A stretch of DNA of 64,000 bases from Geodermatophilus saharensis. GTDB lineage: Bacteria > Actinomycetota > Actinomycetes > Mycobacteriales > Geodermatophilaceae. The notes beneath the pieces were generated by a model. It saw nothing but the letters and a program-made list of their open reading frames with translations. It was not told where the DNA came from and made no database searches. Below are positions 54,503 to 59,944 of this stretch, in pieces (positions within the stretch are counted from its first letter, which is position 1; every line of letters begins with the position of its first letter). The stretch lies in contig NZ_FZOH01000002.1 of NCBI RefSeq assembly GCF_900188205.1, positions 62,001 through 126,000 on the forward strand, read 5' to 3'. A program made the position numbers and the translations under genes.

Positions 54503-55161
54503 CCGGCGTCGTCGGGGTGGACCTCCCCGACGCGCGGGGGCGGACCGGGCTGGACCGGGCCGGCCGCGACCTCACCGGCAACCCCGACGTCGTCGTCCGC
54601 GACGTCGAGGTGCTCTCCAGCTCCTGGTACGTCAACCGGCGGACGACGTTCGACCGGCGCGGCCGCGACGGCGTCTGGCGCACCGAGCGGCGCGAGACGC
54701 ACGACCGCGGCAACGGCGCCACCGTGCTGCTGTACGACACCGCCCGCCGCACCGTGCTGCTCACCCGCCAGTTCCGCTTCCCGGCCTACGTCAACGGCTC
54801 CCCCGACGGGGTGCTGGTGGAGACCGCCGCCGGCCTCCTCGACGAGCAGGACGCCGAGGCCGCGGTCCGCCGGGAGGCCGCCGAGGAGCTCGGCGTCGCC
54901 GTCGGGCCGCTCACCCGGCTGCCCGACGTGTGGATGAGCCCGGGGTCGGTGACCGAGCGGCTGGCCTTCTTCGCCGGCCCGTACACCCCGGCCGACCGGG
55001 TGTCGGCCGGGGGCGGGCTCGCCGAGGAGGGCGAGGACATCGAGGTGCTCGAGCTGCCCGTCGAGCAGGCGCTGGCCATGGTCGACGACGGCCGGATCGC
55101 CGACGCCAAGACCGTCCTGCTGCTGCAGTGGGCGGCGCTGCGGGGCCCGTTCGCTGCCTAG
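54499..55161 (+). CDS. Nudix hydrolase (NudK/GDP-mannose pyrophosphatase-like)
   Basis: 220 residues. The strand pattern VLSSSWYVNRRTTFDRRGRDG and Nudix helix REAAEELGVAVG match the NudK/ADP-ribose pyrophosphatase group, which hydrolyses nucleotide sugars. GTG overlaps the DUF4406 stop. The operon as a whole suggests nucleotide-sugar or NAD/ADP-ribose breakdown under DeoR control. TAG overlaps the stop of the convergent synthetase. Confidence 0.87.
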   Translation: MTGVVGVDLPDARGRTGLDRAGRDLTGNPDVVVRDVEVLSSSWYVNRRTTFDRRGRDGVWRTERRETHDRGNGATVLLYDTARRTVLLTRQFRFPAYVNGSPDGVLVETAAGLLDEQDAEAAVRREAAEELGVAVGPLTRLPDVWMSPGSVTERLAFFAGPYTPADRVSAGGGLAEEGEDIEVLELPVEQALAMVDDGRIADAKTVLLLQWAALRGPFAA

Positions 55162-57173
55162 CGGGCCCCGCGCTCCCGGGCCAGGGCGACGTAGTGCTCG
55201 ACCAGCGACGCGTCGTCGACGGCCCCGGGGTTGACCGCCTTCTCCGGGGGCACGCCCTGGAACAGCCGCTTGAGCGGCACCTCCAGCCGCTTGCCGGTGC
55301 GGGTGTGCGGGACGCCGGGCGCCACCAGGATCTCGTCGGGCACGTGCCGCGGGCTGGCCGAGCTGCGGATGGCCGCGCGGATGCGGTCGGCGAGGTCGTC
55401 GGTGAGCTCCGCGCCGGGGGCCAGCTGCACGAACAGCGGCATCCAGTAGCCGCCGTCGCGCTGCTCGACGCCGAGGACGACGCAGTCGGCGATCTCCGGG
55501 AAGGCCTCGACGGCGGCGTAGATGTCGGCGGTGCCCATGCGCACGCCGCCGCGGTTGAGCGTGGAGTCCGAGCGCCCGGTGATCAGGCAGGTGCCGCGCT
55601 CGGTGACCTCCATCCAGTCGCCGTGCCGCCACACGCCCGGCCACGGCTCGAAGTAGGCCTCCCGGTAGCGGCTGCCGTCCGGGCCCGGAGGAGTGTCGTT
55701 CCAGAAGTACAGCGGCATCGACGGCATCGGCTCGGTGACCACCAGCTCGCCCAGCTCGCCGACGACCGGCCGGCCGTCCTCGTCCCACGCCGCCGCGGCG
55801 ACGCCGAGCATCGGCCGCTGCAGCTCCCCGGCGGTCACCGGCAGCAGCAGGGTGCTGCCGATGAACCCGGTGGCCACGTCGGTGCCGCCGGACACCGAGC
55901 CGAGGAAGACGTCGCCGCCCACCGCGTCGTAGACCCAGTGGAACGTCGACTCGGGCAGCGGTGAGCCGGTCGAGCCGATCGTGCGCAGCGCCGAGAGATC
56001 GTGGGTCTCCCCCGGCCGGACGCCGGCCTTCTCGCACGCGATCAGGTAGCCGGCGCTGGTGCCCAGGTAGGTCAGGCCGGTGCGGGCGGCGAGGGCGAAC
56101 TGCGCGTCGACCGTCGGGTACGCCGGAGCGCCGTCGTGGACGACCACGGTGGCGCCGCGCAGCAGCGCCGAGGTGGCGATGTTCCACATGATCCAGGCGG
56201 TGGAGGCGTACCAGTAGAAGCGGTCGCCGGGGCCGACGTCGCCGTGCAGGCCCAGCTGCTTGTGCTGCTCGAGGACGACACCGCCGTGCCCGTGCACGAT
56301 CCCCTTGGGCAGCCCGGTGGTGCCCGAGGAGTACACGATCCACAGCGGCGCGTCGAAGGGCAGCGGCTCGAACTCCGGATCCTGCCGGTCGGCGACGGCG
56401 TCGGCCCAGGCCAGCGCGCCGTCGGGCCGCTCGTCGGGGAACAGCCGGGGGACGGCGACCGTCGTCGTCACCGTGGGCAGGGCGGCGCGCAGCTCGGCGA
56501 CGACGTCGCGCCGGTCGTGGGCCCTGCCGTTGAAGCGGTACCCGTCGACGGCGACCAGCACGGTGGGCTCGATCTGGGCGAACCGGTCGAGGACGGCGCG
56601 GGTGCCGAAGTCCGGCGCGCAGGAGGACCACACCGCACCGATCGACGCCGCGCCCAGGAAGGCGACGACCGCCTCGGGGACGTTGGGCAGGTAGCCCGCG
56701 ACGCGGTCGCCGCGCCGCACGCCCAGCCGGCGCAGCGTGGCGGCGAAGGCGCCGACCTGCCCGCGCAGGACGGCCCAGGAGACCTCCACCGGCTCGGCGT
56801 CCTCGGCCACGGCGATCAGGGCGGGGTGCTCGTCGGTGGCCTGCCGCAGCGCCTGCTCGGCGTAGTTGACCGTGGCGTCGGGGAACCAGACGGCGCCGGG
56901 CATCCGCCGGTCGGTCAGCACCCGGTCGTCGGGGACGCCGGGCAGCACGCCCGACCACGCGGCGACGTCGGCCCAGAACTGGTCGGGGTGCTCGACCGAC
57001 CAGCGCCAGATCGCGTCGTAGTCGGTCGGGTCGAGGTCGAGCCCGCGCCTGGCGGCCGCGTCGCGGGCGAACCCGGCCAGCCGGGTCGCCTCGCGGGACT
57101 GCTGCGTCGGCTGCCAGAGGACGGCCGGGCCGGTCGAGGAGCCGGTCGAGGCGCCGGGAGTGTCGACGGTCAC
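55158..57173 (-). CDS. acetoacetyl-CoA synthetase
   Basis: 671 residues, ANL adenylate-forming family. Activates acetoacetate with ATP and CoA. SSGTTGLPKGIVHGHGG is the nucleotide motif; TGSPLPESTFHWVYD, GGTDVATGFIGS and YFWNDTPPG are typical of AacS; the C-terminal GKRLEVPLKRLFQG carries the adenylating Lys. GTG start. Together with 3-hydroxybutyrate dehydrogenase at 7.8 kb it would complete use of hydroxybutyrate, though they are far apart. Confidence 0.93.
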   Translation of the reverse strand: MTVDTPGASTGSSTGPAVLWQPTQQSREATRLAGFARDAAARRGLDLDPTDYDAIWRWSVEHPDQFWADVAAWSGVLPGVPDDRVLTDRRMPGAVWFPDATVNYAEQALRQATDEHPALIAVAEDAEPVEVSWAVLRGQVGAFAATLRRLGVRRGDRVAGYLPNVPEAVVAFLGAASIGAVWSSCAPDFGTRAVLDRFAQIEPTVLVAVDGYRFNGRAHDRRDVVAELRAALPTVTTTVAVPRLFPDERPDGALAWADAVADRQDPEFEPLPFDAPLWIVYSSGTTGLPKGIVHGHGGVVLEQHKQLGLHGDVGPGDRFYWYASTAWIMWNIATSALLRGATVVVHDGAPAYPTVDAQFALAARTGLTYLGTSAGYLIACEKAGVRPGETHDLSALRTIGSTGSPLPESTFHWVYDAVGGDVFLGSVSGGTDVATGFIGSTLLLPVTAGELQRPMLGVAAAAWDEDGRPVVGELGELVVTEPMPSMPLYFWNDTPPGPDGSRYREAYFEPWPGVWRHGDWMEVTERGTCLITGRSDSTLNRGGVRMGTADIYAAVEAFPEIADCVVLGVEQRDGGYWMPLFVQLAPGAELTDDLADRIRAAIRSSASPRHVPDEILVAPGVPHTRTGKRLEVPLKRLFQGVPPEKAVNPGAVDDASLVEHYVALARERGAR

Positions 57174-57342
57174 GCCCGGACTCTGCCACCGGGGACCGCC
57201 CATCGGGCGACCGGGGCGGAGCGCGGCGGGCCCGGCGGTGACGGTCGGTCAGGACGGGTCCGCCCATCGGGTGACTGCCGTTTCGCGGTCACCGTCCGCT
57301 CCAATCTGTGTGCTGACAGTCACCGTCTCGGGGGGAGGTGCG

Positions 57343-58287
57343 ATGGCCGGGGGAACGACGGGCCGCCGCGCCCGCCTGCGCCGGTGGAGCGGCCGCGCCC
57401 TGCTGCTGGCCGGCCTCGGGGCCGGGGCGTGGCTGGGCGGTCAGGCCCCCGCCTCGGCCGACGAGGCGCCGCCGGCTCCCCTGCTCGCGTCGGTGACCGC
57501 CCCGGCCGGCGAGCTGGTGGGGCAGGTCGCCGCACCCGTCGGCGGGGCGCCCGGCCCGGTCCTCGAGCCGGTGCTGCCGCCCGTGGCCGGGGCGGTCTCC
57601 GAGGCCGGAACGCCGGTGGTGGCGCCGCTGGCGGACGCCGTCGCGCCGGTCACCGCCGCGCTCGAGCCGGTACTGAGCCCCGCGGCACAGACCCTCGCCC
57701 GCGTCACCGACTCCCTGACTCCCGTCACCGACCCGCTGGCGCCGGTGACCGACGTGCTCGTGCCCGTGACCGACGTGCTCACCCCGGTGGACGACGTCGT
57801 CGAGCCGGTGACCGGTGTGCTGCCGCCCGTCCCGGCCCCAGCCGCCGGCCCCGCGGTGGTCGACCCCGCGGTGCTCGACCCGGCGGCGACCGACCCCGCG
57901 TCGCCGCCCGCGCCCACCGTCGTCCCGCCGTCCGCTGCCCGCGCGGTGGAGGCCCCTGATCCGGCGGCCCCGGGTGCCGTGACCCCGGACCCGGGGTCGC
58001 CGGACGCCGCGCCGACGGCCGGCCCGGTCGCCGCGCCGTCCGCTCCCGCCGCCGTCGTCCCCGTGTCGCCGCTGCCGGTCGCGCCGGTCGCCCCGCTGCC
58101 GCCCGCGGTCCCGGCCGCGCCGGCGCCGGCGGGCGCGGCGGCATCTGGTGCCGACCGCGACCAGCCCGCGGCCGACCTGGTGGCGGCCACTCCTGCCGCG
58201 CTGCTCGCGGCGGCCGGCGCGGTGTCCGACGGTGCCCGCGAGGCCGCGGCCGCCGACCCCGTCGACCCCGCCACCTCCCCCGACTGA
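57343..58287 (+). CDS. secreted Pro/Val/Ala-rich protein with heptad repeats
   Basis: 314 residues. Signal peptide (1-39, basic start, cleavage after ASA). Residues 127-163 hold a 7-residue tandem repeat of form PVTDxLx (PVTDPLA, PVTDVLV, PVTDVLT, PVDDVVE, PVTGVLP), with degenerate units back to about 65. The C-terminal half is Pro/Ala/Asp-rich and probably extended. No sorting motif or membrane anchor is seen, so it should be released or held by a partner. ATG with GGGGGAGG upstream. It may work with the chaplin-like protein encoded next. Confidence 0.78.
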   Translation: MAGGTTGRRARLRRWSGRALLLAGLGAGAWLGGQAPASADEAPPAPLLASVTAPAGELVGQVAAPVGGAPGPVLEPVLPPVAGAVSEAGTPVVAPLADAVAPVTAALEPVLSPAAQTLARVTDSLTPVTDPLAPVTDVLVPVTDVLTPVDDVVEPVTGVLPPVPAPAAGPAVVDPAVLDPAATDPASPPAPTVVPPSAARAVEAPDPAAPGAVTPDPGSPDAAPTAGPVAAPSAPAAVVPVSPLPVAPVAPLPPAVPAAPAPAGAAASGADRDQPAADLVAATPAALLAAAGAVSDGAREAAAADPVDPATSPD

Positions 58288-58381: not shown

Positions 58382-59458
58382 GTGAACACCCTAAGGACCA
58401 CGTGGGCCACCCGTGCCCTGCGCGTGGCGTTGCTGACCGGCGGCCTGCTGGCCGTCGGCACCGGCGTCGCCTCCGCGTCCGACGACCTGTCCGACGACCC
58501 GGCCGACGACCTGGCCGTGACCGTGCCGGTCACCGTCACCGACAACTCCCTCGGCGTCCTCACCGACGCCCCCGCCGGCGGGGGCCTCGAGCTGCCCGCC
58601 GTCAGCGCCGACGTCACCGTCGACCTCGGCGCCGCCACCGTCTCGGTGCCCGTGACGGTCGGCGGCAACGACGCCGCGGTGGCCGGCGGTGGGGTTCCCC
58701 AGGAACCGGCCGCTCCGGCGGCGGCTCCCGAGCCGGCTCCTGCACCGGCCGACGTCGCCGTCCCGGTCACCGTGTCGGGCAACGCCGTCGGCGTGCTCGG
58801 CGACGCGGAGGCCACCGGCACCAGCCCGGCGGCCCCGGCGGGCGCGGTCACCGTGCCCGTCACCGTGTGCGGCGTCGGCGCCGGCGTGCTCGGCGACGCA
58901 TCGGCCGACTGCACCTCGCCTGCGGGTGCTCCCGGCGCGGGTGACGGCAGCGGTGGCGGCCCGGGCAGCGGCGCCGTCGTCGACGTGCCGGTGACCGTCT
59001 GCGGCGTGGGCGTGGGCCTGCTCGGTGACGCGTCGGCCGACTGCGCGCCGTCGAGCGGCCCGACTCCCCCGGCCGGCCCGCAGGAGCCGGCGCACCCGGC
59101 CGGCCCGCAGGACCCGGGGACCCAGCCCGGCAGCCGGCCGGGCGGCCTGCCCGCCGACGGCGCGGAGTCCGTCCGCCCGGTCGCCTGGGGCGGCGCGTGG
59201 ACCGGCCCGTGGACCGGCCCGCGGTCCGGCTCCTGGACCGGTTCCTGGACCGGTTCCTGGACCGGCCCTGCGGCCGCCTCGGGATCCGGCGCGGAGGCCG
59301 GTCCCGGGACCGCGACGGCCGGTGGGCACGGGTCCACCGGTGGCCGGCTGGCCTCCACCGGCGCGGACCTGCGCCGCGCCCTGGGCGCGGGACTGCTGGT
59401 CCTGCTGCTGGGTGAGGTGCTGCTGCTGGCGGCGCGCCGCCGGGACGGCACCGCCTGA
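58382..59458 (+). CDS. surface protein with chaplin-like repeats and LASTG sorting signal
   Basis: 358 residues. Signal peptide 1-32 (VASA-SDD). Five degenerate repeats VPVTV-x2-N/V-x-(V)G-VLGDA lie near 46-63, 87-101, 125-142, 156-177 and 200-221; the last two hold a Cys pair each (163/177 and 207/221). This resembles the chaplin domain (VPVNVCGNTV...GN..C). Then a Pro-rich stretch, tandem SWTG units (about 275-295), and at the end LASTG (323-327), a hydrophobic helix and RRR: a class E sortase signal. It is organised like long chaplins but with more, shorter repeats. GTG with GAGGAG upstream. Confidence 0.82.
   Translation: MNTLRTTWATRALRVALLTGGLLAVGTGVASASDDLSDDPADDLAVTVPVTVTDNSLGVLTDAPAGGGLELPAVSADVTVDLGAATVSVPVTVGGNDAAVAGGGVPQEPAAPAAAPEPAPAPADVAVPVTVSGNAVGVLGDAEATGTSPAAPAGAVTVPVTVCGVGAGVLGDASADCTSPAGAPGAGDGSGGGPGSGAVVDVPVTVCGVGVGLLGDASADCAPSSGPTPPAGPQEPAHPAGPQDPGTQPGSRPGGLPADGAESVRPVAWGGAWTGPWTGPRSGSWTGSWTGSWTGPAAASGSGAEAGPGTATAGGHGSTGGRLASTGADLRRALGAGLLVLLLGEVLLLAARRRDGTA
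59197..59270 (+). repeat. 12-bp tandem repeats encoding SWTG/PWTG units
   Basis: Within the surface-protein gene, the unit TGGACCGGTTCC recurs in near-perfect tandem copies, with earlier variants TGGACCGGCCCG, encoding W-T-G-(P/S) tetrapeptides. Such repeats can vary in number between strains by slippage. Confidence 0.7.
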
Positions 59459-59542: not shown

Positions 59543-59944
59543 ATGACCGAGCCGGAGAGCGAGCGCAACGTGCTGGGCGGCGTGCTGGAGCCCTGCGGCA
59601 CCGAGCCGCTGACCGGCTACTTCCGCGACGGGGCCTGCCGCACCGGCTCGGAGGACCTGGGCAGCCACACCGTCTGCACCGTGGTGTCCCAGGAGTTCCT
59701 GGCCCTGCAGCGCGAGCTCGGCAACGACCTCACCACCCCGCGACCGGAGTACGGCTTCCCGGGACTGCACCCGGGCGACCGCTGGTGCGTCGTCGCCGTG
59801 CGGTGGCTGCAGGCCTACCGCGCCGGGGCGGCGGCCGGCGTCGTGCTCGCGGCCACCAACGAGCGGGCGCTGGAGGTGATCCCGCTGACGGCGCTGCGCC
59901 AGCACGCCGTCGACGTCCCCGACGACATCAGCGACCTGGAATGA
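59543..59944 (+). CDS. DUF2237 family protein
   Basis: 133 residues. RNVLGGVLEPCGTEPLTGYFRDGACRTGSEDLGSHTVCTVVSQEFL and GLHPGDRWCVVAVRWLQAY are characteristic of DUF2237, with conserved Cys and Arg/His residues; function unknown. ATG with CACGAT six bases upstream suggests a leaderless transcript. Followed 55 bases later by a glutathione peroxidase gene. Confidence 0.88.
   Translation: MTEPESERNVLGGVLEPCGTEPLTGYFRDGACRTGSEDLGSHTVCTVVSQEFLALQRELGNDLTTPRPEYGFPGLHPGDRWCVVAVRWLQAYRAGAAAGVVLAATNERALEVIPLTALRQHAVDVPDDISDLE

Follow-up and report, generated by a model that had tools for sequence, protein, structure and literature searches.

A shortened chaplin-type repeat protein of Geodermatophilus saharensis and its constant tail-bearing partner

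Introduction

Discussion of chaplins usually centres on Streptomyces, where they are amyloids of aerial growth. We describe here a chaplin-related gene pair from Geodermatophilus saharensis, located in a stretch of 64,000 nucleotides (NZ_FZOH01000002.1, positions 62,001-126,000, forward) that is called the window throughout and from whose first base positions are counted. The second gene of the pair encodes P0001, a protein with five short repeats, a hydrophilic stalk and a C-terminal sorting signal, and the first encodes P0002, a partner with a signal region and a conserved free C-terminus. As judged from sequence, the repeats of P0001 are homologous to chaplin domains; the unit is a shortened chaplin repeat, a relative of the multi-repeat chaplins and not a chaplin in the strict sense. 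The pairing with a tail-bearing partner recurs in many other actinobacteria. Based on this, we consider it somewhat probable that the pair is a two-gene surface-coat cassette, in which an anchored, hydrophobic P0001 would act with a secreted P0002.

Results

Five shortened chaplin repeats in P0001

An earlier reading of the sequence, hereafter the initial annotation, had seen five short repeats in P0001, two of them with Cys pairs, and had taken them for degenerate chaplin domains. The features of the protein are listed below, with repeat boundaries (units of about 20-26 amino acids, aa) taken from alignments to the chaplin-repeat profile described after the list.

58382..59458, + strand: P0001, chaplin-related, probably sortase-anchored surface protein; open frame with GTG start, 358 aa plus stop
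58382..58480, + strand: signal peptide, MNTLRTTWATRALRVALLTGGLLAVGTGVASA; its motif TWxxRxLRxALLTGGLLAVGTGVAxA is common to the downstream genes of the module described below
58511..58582, + strand: repeat 1 (aa 44-67), without Cys; 19.6 bits to the chaplin-repeat profile
58634..58693, + strand: repeat 2 (aa 85-104), without Cys and the weakest; 9.5 bits to the chaplin-repeat profile, 9.1 bits to PF03777
58748..58825, + strand: repeat 3 (aa 123-148), without Cys; 32.6 bits to the chaplin-repeat profile, 11.4 bits to PF03777
58847..58918, + strand: repeat 4 (aa 156-179), Cys163-x13-Cys177; 28.3 bits to the chaplin-repeat profile
58979..59044, + strand: repeat 5 (aa 200-221), Cys207-x13-Cys221; 24.7 bits to the chaplin-repeat profile
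59057..59341, + strand: hydrophilic stalk (aa 226-320), Pro/Gly-rich, with Trp-containing WTG repeats; grand average of hydropathy (GRAVY) -0.69
59348..59362, + strand: LASTG sorting pentapeptide (aa 323-327); LAYTG in the eight congeneric orthologs
59363..59455, + strand: hydrophobic helix and RRR tail of the sorting signal; helix predicted at 327-354

The chaplin-repeat profile has 36 columns and was built from 54 domains of 13 proteins, with no Geodermatophilus sequence among them. Its members come from a ChpA-C collection in which 72 of 296 genomes of the class match at E<=0.01 (67 of them above the cut-off), with further members taken from 16 non-Streptomyces-like genomes, several being multi-repeat proteins. 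Nineteen ChpA-C loci were translated; L068, L073, L076, L077 and L078 were excluded from the profile (wrong register or antisense) and L079 gave no domain. The profile scores P0001 at 90.8 bits over the whole protein, and each of the five repeats is detected. Of 2,000 composition shuffles, 1,863 produced a row at all, the highest score being 8.7 bits; the reversed protein scored -17.7, and P0002 next to it -17.6. The L020 row of the scan is not independent, as that gene supplied profile domains. The repeats proposed by the initial annotation, and their description as degenerate chaplin domains, are thereby borne out, save that repeat 2, weak alone (i-Evalue 0.2), reads VAGGG instead of VLGDA.

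Each repeat aligns from profile column 10-12 to column 29-35, which is the last two thirds of the domain, and from this starting point it follows that the first segment, with its first GN motif, is missing. The published definition of a chaplin demands three GN motifs spaced 12-13 residues apart and two Cys (PMC13251363; three GN motifs also in PMC7766987; these and all other papers are cited from a portion of their text). In P0001 there is one GN or DN per Cys-free unit, the two Cys units carry CGVG, and two Cys per domain occur in two of five repeats, with the C-x13-C spacing that is also seen in L069; the Streptomyces-type spacing is C-x17-C. Measured against that definition, P0001 is therefore not a chaplin in the strict sense, and what is particular to it, as read from the alignments, is the loss of the first GN segment that leaves a short unit.

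Two results weigh against the coat model set out below. An hmmscan of P0001 with PF03777 (ChpA-C) gave no row at E<=10, and a scan of the genome touched only repeats 3 and 2 of the protein, at 11.4 and 9.1 bits, short of the gathering cut-off of 21 bits. The Cys repeats, too, read CGVG and not CGN. Given the Pfam result and its strong composition bias, P0001 might be a low-complexity V/T/G/A-rich secreted protein whose likeness to chaplins arises through composition and convergence. A convergent, low-complexity origin of the repeats is rejected on the basis of the shuffles, the reversed sequence and the intermediate sequences, and we regard any reading without a chaplin relation as extremely improbable. 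The intermediates share the signal peptide and include a full-length relative from another family of the same order (G027; 702 aa, LAYTG), which reaches 72.3 bits to PF03777. Repeats of the multi-repeat ChpA-C protein L069, for example GGNQVVAPITAPVNVCGNSVAVLGDAFSGC, share the C-x13-C core, which there reads VCGNSVAVLGDAxxGC. Among congeners, G019 reaches 21.3 bits summed with neighbouring stretches, and L017 (17.5 bits) and L012 (no row), each scanned alone, lie below the cut-off. Of the two profile searches that the initial annotation had called for, the Pfam model thus stayed below cut-off and the custom one matched all five repeats.

Two observations on PF03777 stand apart. Among 26 genus genomes its cut-off is passed only by the G. 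saharensis genome itself and by G019. On contig C11 of the former, at about 622.5 kb (L005:1465-1743, - strand), lies a candidate short chaplin-like gene for a probably secreted 93-aa protein, with 24.4 bits to ChpA-C and two Cys in the ChpA-C stretch.

P0001 has exactly four cysteines, all in the two C-x13-C pairs (163/177 and 207/221). Repeats, Cys pairs and sorting signal all recur in the eight congeneric orthologs, where every cysteine sits in a C-x13-C pair, with 2-5 pairs per protein. In the repeat-rich block (alignment columns 30-190) the ratio of nonsynonymous to synonymous substitution rates (dN/dS) of P0001 against L011-L014 is 0.28, 0.47, 0.36 and 0.30, with 0.34 and 0.75 for two further pairs; in the stalk and tail it is 0.88-1.08 across all six. 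Most pairs show purifying selection on the repeat-rich block, and the stalk and tail evolve almost freely. The repeats are also more hydrophobic (GRAVY 0.62-1.10) than three Streptomyces-type chaplin domains (0.41-0.60). No sequence of a solved structure matched P0001 at E<=1. The putative GTG start (58382-58396) gives an N-terminus four residues longer than in all eight orthologs.

The gene upstream of P0001 encodes a partner with a constant tail

Immediately before P0001, and in the same direction, lies the gene for P0002, a constant partner that the initial annotation had not recognised.

57343..58287, + strand: P0002, partner protein, 314 aa; Arg-rich N-terminus, signal region with AWL and an ASA cleavage-like site, PVTDVL heptad-like repeats, free C-terminus DPATSPD
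57646..57825, + strand: PVTDxLx heptad-like stretch of P0002 (about aa 102-161), with a 21-base tandem array inside
58255..58284, + strand: conserved free C-terminus DPVDPATSPD of P0002, compared below with the tails of 51 partners

P0002 is Pro/Val/Ala-rich, and AlphaFold gives it weakly predicted helices. When ten partner proteins, P0002 included, were compared with Pfam and NCBIfam, none rose above a cut-off and only scattered weak rows appeared.

The two genes have the form of a two-gene module, in which a co-directional upstream gene ending in P(D/G) precedes the second gene by a short gap (here ATSPD and 94 base pairs, bp). At the nine loci first examined besides the window the upstream co-directional gene ends in P(D/G). 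The same holds for 27 of 27 loci in all (23 PD, 4 PG; gaps of 64-234 bp; eight family codes) and for three of three further congeners (G001, G009, G019), against a background of 2 in 179 other coding-like open reading frames of the same regions. Family and genus codes are the tool's own, and "Streptomyces-like", used here for g37, is inferred from its chaplins. The 27 loci comprise the window, L009, and eight plus 17 further regions; all were chosen by their downstream gene, as P0001 relatives, matches to a profile of the downstream signal peptide, or ChpA-C matches. The signal-peptide profile gave 46 match rows, of which the window's own, 29 loci and five more were read. Thirteen of the 29 entered the set and ten f31 loci were excluded (in nine the gene immediately before is a different one that has a sorting-like end, and for L195 none is shown). 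Also excluded were L189, L202, L204, L207, L211 and L213 (short, unrelated or antisense) and L218-L220 (antisense frames).

Twenty of the 27 downstream genes exceed 20 bits with the chaplin-repeat profile, a count in which five genomes (G225, G155, G087, G144, G038) are not independent, having supplied profile domains. A reciprocal search was made from the partner side, with a profile of 19 partner N-termini run over 394 genomes of the class, of which 92 match at E<=0.01. Listed places were examined down to E = 3.4e-4, giving 48 (15 already in the set of 27), and rows from 4e-4 to 0.01 were left out; L260/L266 and L264/L267 are each one place under two names. The tail is present in 24 of the 33 further places. 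The nine tail-less places are five Streptomyces-like, two f8, one f41 and one f43, the last ending in VSPA. Downstream stretches of 346-2,600 bases carry chaplin repeats above 20 bits at 18 of the 24 tail-bearing places versus none of eight tail-less places tested (L264/L267 left out). Fifty-four random stretches served as controls; they were taken from the window, from L185 and from the loci L130-L150 of congeners rather than from other families, and exceeded 10 bits only at two module-bearing loci and in the region of the small chaplin-like gene L005. The partner was also met beside ChpA-C genes of f31, a code at first taken to be without it, so that the family codes number nine.

Over the 51 collected tails (the 27 loci and the 24 places kept for having the tail) the consensus is DDP[SD][FV]SPD. 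Proline stands at position -2 in all 51, the last residue is Asp in 47 and Gly in four, and Ser or Thr is found at -3 in 45. The Gly-ending tails include those of three f41 partners, L229 (G372), L231 (G194) and L233 (G308), which end in HDSQHHLRPD(V/T)SPG and whose downstream genes are without chaplin repeats.

The partner could still be a mere neighbour of P0001, with an SPD tail that serves some other process, for instance degradation or being recognised by a surface protease. Such a reading gains from the tail-bearing partners that precede secreted proteins without detected chaplin repeats: seven of the 27 downstream genes have only the signal peptide in common, and six of the 24 tail-bearing places of the reciprocal set have no chaplin repeats downstream. 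These counts speak against a partner dedicated to chaplin-type proteins, and because of them we do not regard it as strictly a chaplin helper. Unrelated neighbours nevertheless seem improbable to us, given an adjacency of 27 in 27 with the same tail in eight family codes, the reciprocal 18 of 24 against none of eight, and, in Geodermatophilus, the presence or absence of both genes together at one site (below).

Two further groups of loci touch the second protein of the module. In L180 (G016) and L181 (G021) the gene after an SPD-end partner encodes a protein that shares the signal peptide but has VTVPVNTSGGG-type repeats in place of chaplin repeats and no clear LAxTG, from which it appears that the body of the second protein can be swapped. 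L179 (G038) and L228 (G406) encode chaplin-like repeat proteins of 1,352 and 1,085 aa, with the same signal peptide and no terminal sorting signal.

The Streptomyces-like places returned by the partner signal profile (G339, G220, G314, G096, G289) were rejected as unrelated, having no tail and other neighbours; this judgement rests on those five, lower-ranking Streptomyces-like rows being left out. Two of the corresponding proteins, L267 (G339) and L275 (G220), are secreted-looking repeat proteins without the tail, each followed by a gene that we take to be succinyl-CoA-synthetase-like. At two Streptomyces-type long chaplins (L046, L060) the upstream gene does not end in P(D/G).

Sortase and sorting signal

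The C-terminus of P0001 has an LAxTG pentapeptide, a hydrophobic stretch and a basic tail (LASTG, helix, RRR), the form of a class E sortase substrate that the initial annotation had recognised. It had also asked for a class E sortase elsewhere in the genome, and this was found: among four sortases one is class E (L001; NF033747, 249.2 bits, cut-off 160). The remaining three match class F best, two above the cut-off and L004 (119.6 bits) below that of 166. Based on sequence, anchoring of P0001 by the class E enzyme is likely. Chaplin homology is found and the sortase is present, so neither outcome named beforehand against the initial annotation, namely hits only to unrelated beta-rich secreted proteins or a genome without class E sortase, occurred.

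Class E sortases are reported to use LAXTG, and a Tyr has been proposed to select Ala at P3 (PMC5148588). A point against anchoring by L001 is that it reads GHRVGRGSPF where the solved chain 5go5 reads GHRRTYGDPF, with Arg for Tyr. The closest solved sequence to L001, chain 5uus, is also without that Tyr, and the SrtE1 chain 5cuw is among the matches. If the Tyr of 5go5 is taken as the residue proposed for the LAXTG choice, it is seemingly absent from L001, and because Arg replaces this presumed selecting residue, the LAXTG specificity of L001 towards P0001 is only putative.

The same genome encodes a second probable sortase substrate (L006, contig C10, about 850.4-850.8 kb), a secreted-looking protein that ends in LAYTG, a hydrophobic stretch and RRR.

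The pair occupies a variable site in the genus

Two fixed neighbours frame the pair.

55158..57203, - strand: left fixed neighbour, presumably acetoacetyl-CoA-synthetase-like, marking the insertion site; adjoins the DUF2237 gene in 18 of 26 genus genomes
59543..59944, + strand: right fixed neighbour, DUF2237 protein; PF09996, 166.4 bits; present in 26 of 26 genus genomes

A P0001-type gene lies just upstream of DUF2237 in eight of the 26 genomes, preceded in all eight by the partner and then by the synthetase-like gene. The remaining 18 have the synthetase-like gene directly beside DUF2237, that is, an empty site. As both genes are present or absent together at one site, the pair appears to have been gained or lost together. 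G018 carries the pair at a different place on that contig, some 16-17 kb off, and G016 and G021 have their SPD-end partner and the same-signal-peptide protein with other repeats at other locations.

The empty sites bear on an attractive idea. Geodermatophilus obscurus strain G-20 has a remarkable extracellular amyloid (PMC3035280), and chaplin-like repeats are plausible amyloid units, so the pair might be the source of that material. The site is empty (L143) in G024, which we take to be G. obscurus (identity inferred), and the only match to the profile in this genome is to a sorting-signal tail. If that identity holds, the pair would not explain the G. obscurus amyloid, and we hold the idea to be highly improbable.

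Discussion

A model for the pair

The results suggest how a surface coat could be built from the two proteins. P0001 would be exported by Sec, and the class E sortase would probably fix it covalently to peptidoglycan at LASTG. The five hydrophobic repeats (each approximately VPVTVcGNxVGVLGDAxxxc, corresponding to the later two thirds of a chaplin domain) may fold as short beta hairpins, with a C-x13-C disulfide stapling the last two and the hydrophilic stalk keeping all of them at a distance from the wall. Through these hairpins neighbouring molecules could stack, giving a layer that is hydrophobic or adhesive and possibly amyloid-like. Chaplins themselves form cross-beta fibrils, and their Cys pair has been suggested to form an internal disulfide (PMC5618241). 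P0002, made just before P0001 and probably from the same transcript, would be a secreted companion whose conserved C-terminus may serve as the docking end for a shared partner or receptor; most likely it keeps the sticky P0001 soluble during export, or nucleates or co-assembles with it.

Some observations count against this model. Structure prediction, which the initial annotation had suggested for the repeats, gave poor AlphaFold models of P0001 and P0002 (mean pLDDT, the predicted local distance difference test, of 41.0 and 48.8), so the hairpins are only suggested; just the membrane helix of P0001 is fairly sure (blocks of 78, 86 and 75 for residues 331-358, and 50 for 321-330). Several downstream proteins of the module (G038, G406, G372, G308, G194, G016, G021) lack a sorting signal at their end. 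A promoter and terminator scan found nothing, but since nothing is expected in shuffles either, it has no bearing on co-transcription.

The repeats could alternatively act as an adhesin of small independent beta hairpins on a stalk, binding minerals or cells with no amyloid or hydrophobic sheet, with P0002 as a second, loosely bound adhesion protein. Variation in repeat number between orthologs (2-5 Cys repeats) and the hydrophilic, fast-evolving stalk would suit this, as would a genus said to form no hyphae (PMC3035280) and the additional role of some chaplins in attachment (PMC4255298). We think this account unlikely, though the strongest of the alternatives, since chaplins, to which the repeats are homologous, are known amyloids (PMC5618241), and since the repeats exceed the three measured Streptomyces-type domains in hydrophobicity. 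The surface-coat reading is further supported by the hydrophobic, sortase E-dependent proteins CwpA and CwpB of Actinoplanes, which have no chaplin domains according to their authors, suppress exploratory growth and act in sporangium formation, effects ascribed to a hydrophobic surface (PMC13251363); they favour such a role outside Streptomyces.

Comparison with known systems

The long chaplins ChpA-C of Streptomyces (PF03777) share with P0001 a signal peptide, hydrophobic chaplin-type repeats with a Cys pair, a hydrophilic linker and LAxTG. They have two larger domains with three GN motifs (PMC13251363, PMC7766987) and C-x17-C, whereas P0001 has five units of 20-26 aa that lack the first GN segment, with C-x13-C and with Cys in only two. 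The long chaplins also lack the tail-bearing partner at L046 and L060, and no tail was seen in the five Streptomyces-like places from the partner search.

The multi-repeat ChpA-C proteins of other actinobacteria (among them L069 in G055, L072/L224 in G155, L075/L222 in G144) resemble P0001 in their signal peptide and have tandem repeats built on the same core, P[VI]xV(C)GNxVxVLGDA. L072 and L075 also have LASTG and an upstream partner with a P-D end; L069, unlike P0001, has no clear LAxTG. Their units keep an N-terminal GGNQV/SGTQV segment (period of about 50-60 aa) that the P0001 unit has lost. The suggestion in the initial annotation of a distinct family outside Streptomyces needs correcting, since chaplin-type proteins with several repeats and a sorting signal are found in other lineages too, and multi-repeat members above the PF03777 cut-off exist in other actinobacteria. 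Particular to P0001 is the shortened unit without the first GN segment.

CwpA/CwpB and SspA of Actinoplanes missouriensis resemble P0001 in being class E sortase-dependent surface proteins outside Streptomyces (PMC13251363), and P0001 differs in bearing chaplin-related repeats; this comparison is by description only. The rodlins RdlA and RdlB are secreted companions of chaplins, as P0002 might be. Obvious rodlins are confined to streptomycetes in the account of PMC4255298, and P0002, set beside them by description, is Pro/Val/Ala-rich with a conserved C-terminal tail. Chaplin-like genes have been noted in several genera, even in a non-sporulating rod-coccus (PMC4255298).

What is new and what it may mean

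Multi-repeat chaplins outside Streptomyces are already known, in that they fall within the Pfam family. New are the shortened repeat unit and, more important, the constant tail-bearing partner. We recognised no paper on chaplins in Geodermatophilaceae, on the shortened unit or on such a partner, among open papers only and with no name for the partner to search by, which makes this weak evidence of absence.

More broadly, P0002 and P0001 may represent an unnamed two-component actinobacterial surface system. The S/T-P-D tail protein would then be devoted to chaplin-type and other repeat proteins, as their export chaperone, their nucleator or a co-subunit; surface amyloids outside Streptomyces would require it, and its tail would be read by a conserved surface receptor. 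We put this forward tentatively, as a possibility rather than our expectation.

P0001 places a chaplin-derived protein with a sortase signal in a genus that is described, in the portion of PMC3035280 cited, as being without hyphae. Chaplin-type proteins of nine family codes are tied to a constant partner gene to which no Pfam or NCBIfam model could be assigned. Should display or assembly require this partner, it would be a missing factor for surface amyloids outside Streptomyces, and an S/T-P-D end beside an LAxTG repeat gene would be a simple marker for such coats. The empty sites in sister genomes offer a natural contrast between strains that would have the coat and strains that lack it.
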